Below, piece after piece: positions 24,610-29,048 of a stretch of 64,000 bases of DNA; positions within the stretch are counted from its first letter, which is position 1; every line of letters starts with the position of its first letter. The DNA is from Alicyclobacillus acidocaldarius subsp. acidocaldarius Tc-4-1. GTDB taxonomy: Bacteria; Bacillota; Bacilli; Alicyclobacillales; Alicyclobacillaceae. The stretch is from assembly GCF_000219875.1 (NCBI RefSeq), contig NC_017167.1, positions 2,503,361-2,567,360 on the forward strand, given 5' to 3'. The position numbers and the translations under genes were made by a program. The notes beneath the pieces are model-generated. The model saw only the letters and a list, made by a program, of their open reading frames with translations. It had not been told where the DNA came from and searched no databases.

Positions 24610-26739
24610 CTATTCGTCCCCTGGCTCGGCGAGGACAATCCATTTGACACTTCGCTCTGGATTTTTTCTCTGCGGCCGGTTTACGGTGTTCCAGCCGTTT
24701 TTCCCAAACAGTTCGTTCATCACGAGCGGCAGCAGTCGATGCGCCTGATCCGCCGCGTCCACCATGAGATCGGGAAGCAGCTGTTCGATGCGGTTCTGCA
24801 CGTTGATCCACGTGTCTCCGCTTCTTCTCATCTTATCCATGAACGCTTCGTCGCTTTCGAGTTCGGCGCTCACGTGTCGAACGAGCGCATCCTGCCTGTC
24901 GACACGCGGTCTCGCCTCGTACTCGGTTTCGCGCACCTCTCTCACCCGGCTCGCCTCGGCCTCCGCAGATTCACGATGGCCTCGTTTCTCCTGCTTCTTC
25001 AGACTAGCGAGTTGTCGCAGCCGGTCGGCAAAAGTGGGCACGGGTTCGCGGTCATACGTCGGATCGGCCACCTTGTGCAATTGCTCAAACGAAAGCACCC
25101 GGATGGGAATCGGGTACGGTTTGCCGCCTGCGCTGCTCCAGAAGACCCCCTGGCCCTGAATGGGCTCGTTCAGCAGCGAACTCAGGATGTCCGCGCTGAA
25201 GTGCGCATTGGCGCGCTGCACGGCGCGGAGATCCCCTTCGGACAGCAAGTGAAAGATGAACCAGTTGTCCCCCTGGCTGAGGATTTCGTTGGAAATGCTC
25301 CCCGGCTGCTGAGTGATGAGGATCGCGCCGAGATCGTACTTCCGCCCCTCTTTCACCCAGGCGATGTACGGACCTTCGCCTGACGTGTACGACGAGGCGC
25401 CGAGGACGGATTGGGCCTCTTCGACCACCGCGATGGTGGGGATGGTCTTGGGATCCTTCTCGGTGAAGTGCCGTTGATTGTGCTCGAAGATGCGCTGCAG
25501 GACAATCCCGGAGAGCACCAGGGCCTGCGAGCCGCGGACCTGCGACACGTCGACGACGCAAAGCTTGCCCTGATGCAGGGCGTGGAGCAGCATCTCTAAG
25601 AACGCACTGGAGGGATCGTGCAGCATTTGCACGACCTGCACCATGTTGGCGCGGGCCGCGTTGAGTTCGGCCTCCTGGTTCTCCCGCAGCTGCAGAAGAT
25701 GCTTCAACTTTTCGTCGTCTGCGTCGTGGCCCTTGGCGTAGATCTCGTCCACAAGGTCTCGCCACGCGGACTGCGTCAACATTTTCAGTTTGCGGACGTT
25801 CTGTTGATCCTGACGCTCGGGGGACAGGGCGATGGACAACACCTCGGCGGGCCTCAGTTGGCGAATGTCGAGCTTGATGCCGGAGGCGATGAACGCGGCG
25901 TAAAACGGGCTCGGCGCCTGGCGGTCGGTGAACACGACAATCTTATCCTGTAATTCCGGTACGTCACACAGCCCGGGGCGGTTCTTGTCGTCCGGGAAGA
26001 AGTACTCGCCGTCGGGATCGAAAATGACGCTTCCCACCGGCACGCGCCGTCCGCCGCGCTTCTCGACCGTGGGGGTCTCAGCGTACAGGTTGCTGAACAG
26101 GAGCTTGATGAGATTCGACTTGCCGAAGCCGGCTCTCGCAAAGACGAAGGTGCGCCGCGAGACCAGGTTGGAGACCGGAAACTTCGGGATGACGCACGGG
26201 CTTTGGATCACCATCCACGGTTCCTTCTTGAGCCGAGCATCGCCCTCCGCGTACACGAACTCGCCGAGGGCCAGGTGGCCGATTTCGGCGCCTTCAACGT
26301 GGTGCCCCGCCACGTCGCGCAGGACCTCTGGAGACAAAAACGCGACCTTGCTTCCGACGTGTGGCAGGCGGCGATGCGATGGGGCAAACACGAGCTGCCC
26401 GCCCAACACGCGCACGACGCCGAGCACGCGGATGTCGACGCGGTACCGAAGGTACTTCTCGCGCAGATCCTCGGGCACGGCGCGATCCTCTGTCACCGCC
26501 CGCAGGCTGTAGTCGTCGCCTTCGTCGGAGACGAGCCGCCCCTGCGCCGCGATGGAGGTGATGCGCCCAAGCACGGCCTCGTCTTCGTGCTCCAGCTGCA
26601 CGACGAGAAACATGCCGTGCATCGGTGTGCGCTGGAACTCGCTGCGATAGGGCAGGACGAGATCGGCGTGAAACTCCAGTCCGCCTTCGCTGAATCCTCG
26701 GAAAATGCCGACCACGTGATTTCGGTCAAACAGCTTCAT
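24610..26739 (-). CDS. herA: HerA-family DNA translocase ATPase
   Basis: This 709-residue protein has a HAS-barrel-like N-terminus (residues 1-180), then a FtsK/HerA RecA core. It shows Walker A ARAGFGKSNL (about 201-210), the HerA text DPDGEYFFPD (241-250), Walker B PTIAVVEEAQS (434-443) and the sensor LITQQPGSIS (474-483). A charged coiled tail (about 565-640) follows. HerA hexamers pump DNA and work with the nuclease NurA in end resection; bacterial HerA-like pumps also occur in phage defence. ATG 26739 overlaps the nurA stop by four bases, so the two are co-translated, which supports a physical complex. Confidence 0.92.
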   Translation of the reverse strand: MKLFDRNHVVGIFRGFSEGGLEFHADLVLPYRSEFQRTPMHGMFLVVQLEHEDEAVLGRITSIAAQGRLVSDEGDDYSLRAVTEDRAVPEDLREKYLRYRVDIRVLGVVRVLGGQLVFAPSHRRLPHVGSKVAFLSPEVLRDVAGHHVEGAEIGHLALGEFVYAEGDARLKKEPWMVIQSPCVIPKFPVSNLVSRRTFVFARAGFGKSNLIKLLFSNLYAETPTVEKRGGRRVPVGSVIFDPDGEYFFPDDKNRPGLCDVPELQDKIVVFTDRQAPSPFYAAFIASGIKLDIRQLRPAEVLSIALSPERQDQQNVRKLKMLTQSAWRDLVDEIYAKGHDADDEKLKHLLQLRENQEAELNAARANMVQVVQMLHDPSSAFLEMLLHALHQGKLCVVDVSQVRGSQALVLSGIVLQRIFEHNQRHFTEKDPKTIPTIAVVEEAQSVLGASSYTSGEGPYIAWVKEGRKYDLGAILITQQPGSISNEILSQGDNWFIFHLLSEGDLRAVQRANAHFSADILSSLLNEPIQGQGVFWSSAGGKPYPIPIRVLSFEQLHKVADPTYDREPVPTFADRLRQLASLKKQEKRGHRESAEAEASRVREVRETEYEARPRVDRQDALVRHVSAELESDEAFMDKMRRSGDTWINVQNRIEQLLPDLMVDAADQAHRLLPLVMNELFGKNGWNTVNRPQRKNPERSVKWIVLAEPGDE

Positions 26740-27896: not shown

Positions 27897-29048
27897 CTAG
27901 GCCTCCTCGAGAGAAGCATACAGATCGACCTCCAGCGTGGAGCGGCTGCGGACGAACTGAAACTGATCCGCCTGCCTTCGCCCGTTGGACGCGCTGCCGG
28001 CATCGCACAGGCGGCGCTCCTTCCACGGCGTGCCGCTCAGACTCGCGCGCAGGACTTCGACGGGGTCGACCTCGTAACTCGGTATGGCGCCGAACCGCAC
28101 CACGAGGAGCGCACCGGGTTCGCAGACTTGGCTGACCCGCGTCCAGACCTCGCGCAGGCCCTCGATGAACGCGGGCAGCGAGGGGCGGCCGAGTTGCGGG
28201 TCCGACGCGTAGTCGACGTAGGGCGGGCCGCCGAGAAACCAGTGGCGAAGCCAGTGGTCCGAGACGTACGTCTTCATGCCGAAATACGGCGGCGAGGTGA
28301 TGACGTACCGAAAGCGCATCGCAAAATCGTCCGGCGCGAGCGTTCGGCTGTCCGCCAGCCGGACGAAGCCGGGCACTTTGTCCGGCACATGCGACAACAC
28401 GTGTTCGGCGCGCCTGCGCACGACGTCCAGTACGTCCACATAGACCGGATGGATCTCGCGCGACTTCCAGTAGCGCACCGCAGCGTCGGGTTTCGTGGCA
28501 TAGGTGCGCGGCATCTGGTTGGACAAATAGGACGGCAGACCTTTGTTGCGCGGGCCGTGTAGCACGCCGAGCACGAGCGCGCGCAGCACGATGTCCTCCT
28601 CCGTCTGAACGTCGGAAAGCGCCTGGCGGAGGCGGCAGACATCTTCGAGCGTCTTTTGGTGAAAACACCAGCGCCAGAATTCGCCGTCCGGGACATCGCC
28701 CGGCGCTTCGCTTTCCACGATCTGTTGACACCGCGCCACGACGCCGTGGACCGTGGTCGACGCCAGCTTCGCCTGCGCGATAGCCACCGCGATGGGATTG
28801 ATATCCACACCGACCGTAGGAAAGCCGACGAGCCTCGCCGCAAAATTCGTCGTGCCTCGACCGCAGAACGGATCCAGCACCCATCCGCGCTCCGCGCCCG
28901 CCAGAACGCGAAGCGGGAACGCGAGAGGAAACATGGTGTAATACGGGCTGATGGCGTTGAGCCGCAGTTGCGGATCAGAACATCTCCGTTTCAACCAAGG
29001 CTCCATGTTGGAAGCCGCGACGTCGCGGTCTGTACGATTGGCATGCAT
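27897..29048 (-). CDS. DNA methyltransferase, TSPPY type
   Basis: This 383-residue amino-methyltransferase has motif [12 protein letters not shown] (residues 58-67), the acidic motif [14 protein letters not shown] and catalytic motif IV TSPPYFG (251-257), which fits N4-cytosine or N6-adenine DNA methylases. Between them lies a long insert (about 105-245) that may bind DNA. ATG 29048 is used. It is the first gene of an operon with nurA and herA, three bases apart. No classical restriction endonuclease lies beside it, so NurA-HerA could supply the cleaving partner. RNA or orphan methylation is the alternative. Confidence 0.85.

Follow-up and report, generated by a model that had tools for sequence, protein, structure and literature searches.

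A Methyltransferase, a NurA-Type Nuclease, and a HerA-Type Translocase Form a Candidate Restriction-Like System in Alicyclobacillus acidocaldarius

Introduction

A stretch of 64,000 nucleotides from Alicyclobacillus acidocaldarius subsp. acidocaldarius Tc-4-1 (contig NC_017167.1, positions 2,503,361 to 2,567,360; hereafter the window), whose genome is a single 3.12 Mb contig, carries an operon-like set of three genes on the reverse strand at window positions 24610–29048. The genes are predicted to encode an S-adenosylmethionine (SAM)-dependent methyltransferase, a nuclease of the NurA/TdpB type, and a DNA translocase ATPase of the HerA/TdpA type. Archaeal HerA-NurA resects DNA ends, and the repair role of the bacterial pair is disputed, according to passages of a published account (PMC9960219). 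Why is a methyltransferase encoded beside this pair, and do the three proteins serve a common purpose?

A preliminary description of this DNA proposed a restriction-like system that lacks a classical endonuclease. In this report, we find that the trio is a conserved unit, that it does not belong to the core genome, and that defense genes lie near it, all of which speak for that proposal; the XRE regulator that had been noted next to the trio is not a member. On balance, we favor the view that the trio is a small mobile system that resembles restriction and is built on methylation, a counterpart of Tdp from Thermus with a methyl mark, in which a translocating nuclease would act as the cutter.

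Results

The methyltransferase gene (27897–29048, 383 aa) is separated by 3 bp from nurA (26736–27893, 385 aa, RNase H-like fold), which overlaps herA (24610–26739, 709 aa) by 4 bp (ATGA). The coordinates agree with the preliminary description, in which a TSPPY methyltransferase was followed after three bases by NurA and the nurA stop codon overlapped herA.

The conservation of the trio was determined by scanning a genome collection with an alignment of NurA sequences. A total of 150 loci were confirmed, from which the best 80 by NurA similarity were kept and one viral contig was added, giving 81 loci that were not dereplicated. At least 1.3 kb is available on either side of nurA-herA in 58 of the 81 loci; the other 23 are short on one side and were excluded. 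The same methylase family is found directly beside nurA-herA in 48 of the 58 loci, either downstream of herA (24 loci), upstream of nurA (16 loci, the arrangement of the window trio), or convergent (8 loci). In three more loci the methylase lies within 3.1 kb (in one case in pieces), and it is missing from the locus in seven. The median spacings of 3 bp (methylase-nurA), 11 bp (nurA-herA), and –4 bp (herA-methylase) are operon-like, and at least four changes of gene order are needed on the NurA tree. No fourth gene recurs, the largest cluster of neighbors being present in 5 of the 81 loci. The search for conserved methyltransferase-nurA-herA trios that the preliminary description had called for thus recovers them as a unit.

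The nuclease and the methylase are also inherited together, as is expected of the cognate nuclease in a restriction-modification system. Their distance matrices are correlated with a Mantel r of 0.68 for 57 rows, whereas the maximum of 2000 permutations was 0.26. The alignment (A3) and the NurA tree omit 12 of the 81 NurA sequences, mostly near-copies or from truncated contigs, by our own choice. Among 398 genomes of the phylum, a close NurA (at least 44% identity) is present in seven, a close methylase (at least 46%) in eight, and both in seven (Fisher 2.7e-14, with cut-offs that were set after the hits had been seen and with relatedness ignored); the seven genomes bear different family codes. 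In five others (G157, G107, G430, G442, and G174), NurA is more distant or present as a fragment, and no close methylase accompanies it; G318, G378, and G427 have a distant methylase. The genomes G318 and G378 carry a second, diverged HerA-NurA-methylase trio (L144 7559–12158 and L145 4676–9319, respectively). The HerA and NurA proteins of these loci are above the Pfam cut-offs, with PF09376 values for NurA of 4.5e-10 and 2.2e-21, and the methylases are 33% and 31% identical to that of the window.

Twelve genomes, picked because the methylase is not directly adjacent to nurA-herA, were searched for a methylase elsewhere. A full-length enzyme (45–48%) was found in five of them, and in G455 and G458 it resides on the same contig at ~9 and ~15 kb from nurA. 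One genome (G460) has only a split methylase, and another has only a 28% relative. In the Streptosporangiaceae genome whose nurA-herA has no close methylase, the neighbors of a 28% relative are a ParB-N protein and a helicase of the PLD/ResIII kind (L148 1595–7367).

The trio is scattered over 20 labeled phyla, including archaea. The NurA tree mixes the phyla, requiring 32 label changes for 20 groups where labels come from bins that may contain stray contigs; because this value lies between the minimum of 19 and the shuffle mean of 48.7, both descent within phyla and transfer contribute. Closer to the window, an intact trio is found in the window genome, in G002 (at the same site), and in G005 (elsewhere). 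G009 retains a relic at the same site as the window trio (L026 9139–11285), in which the 3′ part of nurA and the 5′ half of herA are lost and the methylase is in pieces, and a methylase fragment is present in G052. The preliminary description would have been contradicted by a core gene set linked to resection genes; only 3 of 61 genomes of relatives, the window's own included, have the trio intact, and no resection gene recurs beside it. The site lacks the trio in 12 of 15 genomes of the genus. An unrelated open frame of ~360–395 aa (lengths approximate) is located between the XRE and proS genes in nine of these 12 (L155–L163), and by eye these frames are membrane-hydrolase-like.

The trio and its methylase are also found on mobile DNA. 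A contig from IMG/VR (L119, 586–10808) contains a complete nurA-herA-methylase trio between the genes for the terminase large subunit and the portal protein. The methylase was matched in six plasmids of a plasmid collection, of which four were inspected, and HerA gives only partial matches, in 32 plasmids. P0002 matched nothing at E ≤ 0.01 in 72,556 plasmids and 50,697 phage records, and the methylase matched nothing at 1e-10 in the phage records. A plasmid of Deferribacter carries genes for the methylase, a DUF87 ATPase, and NurA with an IS605-type element between them. On two rhizobial plasmids (L196 7980–13339 and L197 7965–13315), the same methylase family (42–44%) is convergent with a gene for an ATPase of 1414–1416 aa. 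The ATPase from L196, the one of the two that was searched, resembles the SMUBP2 and Dna2 helicases, and relatives of this protein occur in the trio loci L115 and L065. The nearby annotations are an anti-phage dGTPase and DUF262 on one plasmid, and HEPN, an AAA ATPase, and an endonuclease on the other, so that both settings resemble defense clusters. Since the same methylase family is paired with either NurA-HerA or an SMUBP2/Dna2-like helicase, a single kind of marking enzyme may work with motor-nuclease arms that can be swapped.

The methyltransferase matches PF01555 above the cut-off (2.4e-9), and its best family matches are type II methylases (PADLOC) and a DNA methylase (PHROGs). The motifs are arranged in the order X-I-(insert)-IV, and the SAM-binding motif I, DPFCGRGT (residues 59–66; 28851–28874), precedes the catalytic motif IV, SPPY (residues 252–255; 28284–28295), by ~190 residues. 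Residues D59, P60, C62, G63, G65, and S252-P-P-Y255 are invariant in 66 of 66 methylases. The TSPPY motif suggests methylation of DNA at N4 of cytosine (or N6 of adenine), with N4-methylcytosine favored. Judged from these motifs, the enzyme is an intact methyltransferase of the kind that restriction-modification requires, with DNA as the predicted substrate. In the part between the two motifs, residues 157–192 have a mean pairwise identity of 63–70%, compared with 91% for motif I and 23–24% for the two most variable blocks. The stretch between motifs I and IV is likely the target-recognition part, conserved in stretches. By contrast, the recognition parts of restriction systems are usually variable. 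The structural model was also considered as a guide to the substrate and was found to be indecisive, its best matches spanning the Rossmann core only and being mostly enzymes that act on RNA or small molecules; Dam and CamA are also in the Foldseek list.

The window nuclease scores below the Pfam cut-off against PF09376, the NurA family (E = 0.13), and the search of its own genome with PF09376 returned no match. The assignment nevertheless stands because 12 of 70 homologues reach PF09376 at E ≤ 0.01, a profile of 11 relatives searched against the PDB has TdpB as its sole match (4.9e-8), and the structural model is confident (predicted local distance difference test, pLDDT, of 89). The model matches TdpB with Z = 24.3 over 328 residues at an identity of only ~16%, compared with Z = 14.3 for NurA from Sulfolobus and 10.7 for NurA from Deinococcus. 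All 70 NurA rows share D56, E156, and D178, which are presumably the metal ligands, as in archaeal NurA.

HerA matches DUF87 above the cut-off (1e-18), and TdpA is the best of nine PDB sequences found with phmmer (9.8e-20). The Walker A motif AGFGKS (residues 203–208; 26116–26133) and residues V438, E440, E441, A442, and Q443 of the Walker B motif VVEEAQ (residues 438–443; 25411–25428) are kept in at least 96% of 76 HerA rows, and a TQQPG motif is conserved across the same rows. The C-terminal ~150 residues are poorly conserved, and the family has a median length of 704 aa. The herA gene is broken up into a pair of open frames in four loci (L049, L082, L085, and L029). The earlier statement that the active-site motifs are intact is borne out for the three proteins, with motif columns that are either invariant or at least 96% conserved.

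The surroundings of the trio were scanned in 30 of the 81 loci that are on long contigs, using 90 of 120 selected open reading frames (ORFs) that were picked by length and not by a gene finder; another 90 ORFs, taken from these contigs at a distance of 30 kb or more, served as the control. At E ≤ 1e-10 there are 316 PADLOC families in the neighbor ORFs and 100 in the control ORFs, which gives a direction and not an effect size because the families are redundant. Pfam families near the trios include HsdM_N (3), UvrD-helicase (4), AbiEii-type AAA_21 (4), N6_Mtase (3), and ResIII (3), and the first three of these are missing from the 25 Pfam families listed for the control, which consists mostly of transporters and metabolic genes. 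The neighbors of the trio include defense genes, in line with the preliminary description. In one locus (L034 9546–14437), nurA-herA is without a methylase in the flank and is ~600 bp from a CRISPR-associated gene of the Cas_APE2256 type.

The immediate neighbors of the trio in the window are XRE/GNAT and proS. Neither Mre11 nor Rad50 is encoded by these neighbors, and neither recurs across the 81 loci; SMC/AAA_23-type ATPases are found in 3 of the 90 scanned neighbor ORFs. The absence of Mre11-Rad50 that had been reported holds for linkage to the trio but not for the genome, which has a gene for SbcC (Rad50-type) far from the trio at 388 kb. The XRE gene and an imperfect 15+15 palindrome at its promoter (23992–24028, a single copy in the window) are real, as was previously described, and the palindrome is likely the operator of the XRE gene itself. 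Twelve of 12 other genomes of the genus without the trio at this site have the XRE gene there, and 11 of 12 have GNAT. Since XRE is found at this site throughout the genus and has its own palindrome, it is not part of the trio system, and regulation of the trio by XRE was rejected on the same grounds, the palindrome being located only at the XRE promoter.

A weak promoter-like site upstream of the methyltransferase, TTCACA-16-TAGACT (29083–29110, reverse strand), was recognized by consensus match only. A foreign base composition of the trio was considered and rejected; its content of guanine plus cytosine is 60–66%, near the flank values. An Rfam scan of 19000–34000 matched no RNA element.

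Discussion

What is directly supported, at the level of sequence, is the presence of three genes with intact motifs, their inheritance as a unit, a nuclease that resembles TdpB, the lack of any other recurrent partner, and horizontal spread. The favored reading builds on these findings as follows. The methyltransferase would mark a short sequence in the host DNA, with N4-methylcytosine favored by the TSPPY motif. From what is known of the families, HerA would form an ATP-driven hexameric ring that threads double-stranded DNA into a dimer of NurA, and DNA without the mark would be degraded by this assembly as it is translocated. Methylation would protect the host DNA, and the target may be the DNA of phages or plasmids. 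The trio would thereby probably spare the DNA that the cell has marked as its own, while invading DNA that lacks the mark is destroyed.

Several observations weigh against this reading. The nuclease is found without the methylase: nurA-herA occurs without a close methylase anywhere in 5 of the 12 genomes searched, and although most of these genomes are incomplete bins, Allorhizocola (L081) is an isolate. Partner methylases of other families are possible in such cases. Conversely, close methylases stand without adjacent nurA-herA in G245 (53%, L143) and on a plasmid from Allochromatium (L195), where a 48% methylase lies beside transposon genes, so the link is not absolute. The PADLOC counts are of families and not of proteins, and related models are counted many times. 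The control stretches also contain defense genes, including RAMP/Csm3-type (two RAMP-type CRISPR proteins), BrxHI-type, and PLD-helicase genes. To these are added the tRNA methylase-like core of the methyltransferase, its weak match to TIGR01177, and the minor role of a related methylase in Thermus, which are taken up with the alternatives that they favor.

The trio could instead donate or transfer DNA, with HerA exporting chromosomal DNA, NurA trimming it, and the methylase labeling it or being a passenger. The precedent is the DNA secretion operon of ICEth1 from Thermus thermophilus HB27, which according to excerpts of the published work contains genes for Tth111II, a NurA-like protein, TdtA, and an N4-N6 methylase (PMC5365140). 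As described there, nurA, a HerA/FtsK ATPase, and a PF01555 methylase share one operon, in the order of the largest trio class. In the same excerpts and those of a second paper, the tdtA mutant gives no transjugants, the nurA mutant drops by 4–5 logs, and loss of the methylase has a minor effect on transfer (PMC5365140, PMC7767461). If the operons are of the same kind, a near-dispensable methylase is a poor fit with an antidote that is needed. The comparison, by description only, also reveals differences: TdtA is shorter (568 aa, versus the HerA family median), the ICEth1 operon includes a type IIG enzyme, and ICEth1 is an integrative element. No Thermus locus is among the best 80 of the 150 hits, the genes beside the trio in the window include no type IIG gene, neither such a gene nor any other fourth gene recurs in the 81 loci, and a phage integrase family is present in 2 of the 90 scanned neighbor ORFs. 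We regard a transfer module as unlikely.

A module for DNA repair, in which HerA-NurA would resect breaks like its archaeal counterpart, with the methylase tuning where this happens, is quite unlikely. The published activity of the archaeal pair and the UvrD-type helicases (4–5 of the 90 ORFs) and SMC/AAA_23-type ATPases near the trios are consistent with it, but the trio is patchy and missing from most relatives, has no recurrent Mre11-Rad50 neighbor, is carried by a phage, and sits where nine of 12 other genomes of the genus have an unrelated open frame; its NurA is also nearer to TdpB than to the repair NurAs. It is highly improbable that the methylase is an unrelated helper that acts on RNA or protein. 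The core of its predicted structure (pLDDT 88) is nearest to the tRNA methylases Trm14/Trm11 (Z = 19.7, 176 residues), a resemblance because of which the structure cannot decide between DNA and RNA, and TIGR01177 gives a weak match below the cut-off. Against this stand the match to a DNA-methylase family in Pfam above the cut-off, the best family matches to type II and phage DNA methylases, the persistent linkage to genes that act on DNA, and the lack of an RNA-binding domain such as THUMP in a Pfam scan of the protein.

With a restriction-like system as the preferred reading, a broader proposal can be made, to which we would give somewhat less than even chances: the trio may represent a widespread, unnamed class of restriction systems with one methylase family, a conserved recognition part, and exchangeable arms that are mostly NurA-HerA and otherwise a Dna2/SMUBP2-like helicase, borne by a phage in one contig. 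Because the likely recognition part is conserved in long stretches across bacteria and archaea, every member of the class may rely on a single short motif for protection, and because one phage contig carries the trio between terminase and portal, the trio may serve wars between phages. If true, HerA-NurA, commonly classed with the DNA repair proteins, would be a broadly usable immune machine for shredding DNA, able to be guided by more than one kind of self-mark: methyl groups here, sulfur in Tdp, and perhaps something linked to DruA elsewhere. This would help to explain the patchy occurrence of HerA-NurA in bacteria and the dispute over its repair role there (PMC9960219). The trio would also be a simple three-gene system for studying how a ring translocase reads methylation.

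The search of the literature found no named methylase-NurA-HerA defense system except the Thermus operon, which does not establish absence in print. Passages on HerA/FtsK defense systems in published accounts do not mention NurA, and passages of other papers do not describe the trio; NurA and HerA are named as putative CRISPR auxiliary genes in one published legend. The trio resembles type II restriction-modification, BREX, and DISARM in having a methylase and a DNA-processing arm, but it consists of only three genes with neither a classical endonuclease nor another recurrent gene in the 81 loci, among which no scan for the single marker genes of BREX and DISARM was made. The archaeal HerA-NurA system with Mre11-Rad50 comprises the same two protein families from adjacent genes, but the window trio lacks the link to Mre11-Rad50, its nuclease matches the archaeal enzyme with Z of only 14.3, and it is mobile and patchy. 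Distant homologous nurA-herA pairs (L033 10471–11652 and L037 12463–13569, with NurA 34% and 24% identical) have as their neighbor not a methylase but a Druantia-type DruA (PF14236, 1e-92 and 5.6e-68). DruA was considered as a candidate TdpC; one DruA protein was compared with the PDB, where nothing matched it.

The nearest known system is Tdp. In this phage-defense system, a TdpAB complex works with TdpC: the host DNA is phosphorothioated and TdpAB degrades phage DNA that is unmarked. The gene for TdpC, which is responsible for phosphorothioation, is next to tdpAB. The ATPase and the nuclease of Thermus antranikianii TdpAB (PDB 8wet and 8wfd) are the nearest solved relatives of the window HerA and NurA, with the differences that the window HerA exceeds the TdpA chain by ~120 aa and that the nucleases share the low identity given above. 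Apart from the methylase, the 81 loci have no recurrent third gene, and no search with a TdpC sequence was made among them. Where Tdp has TdpC to modify the DNA backbone with sulfur, the window trio has a SAM-dependent methyltransferase as its third gene.

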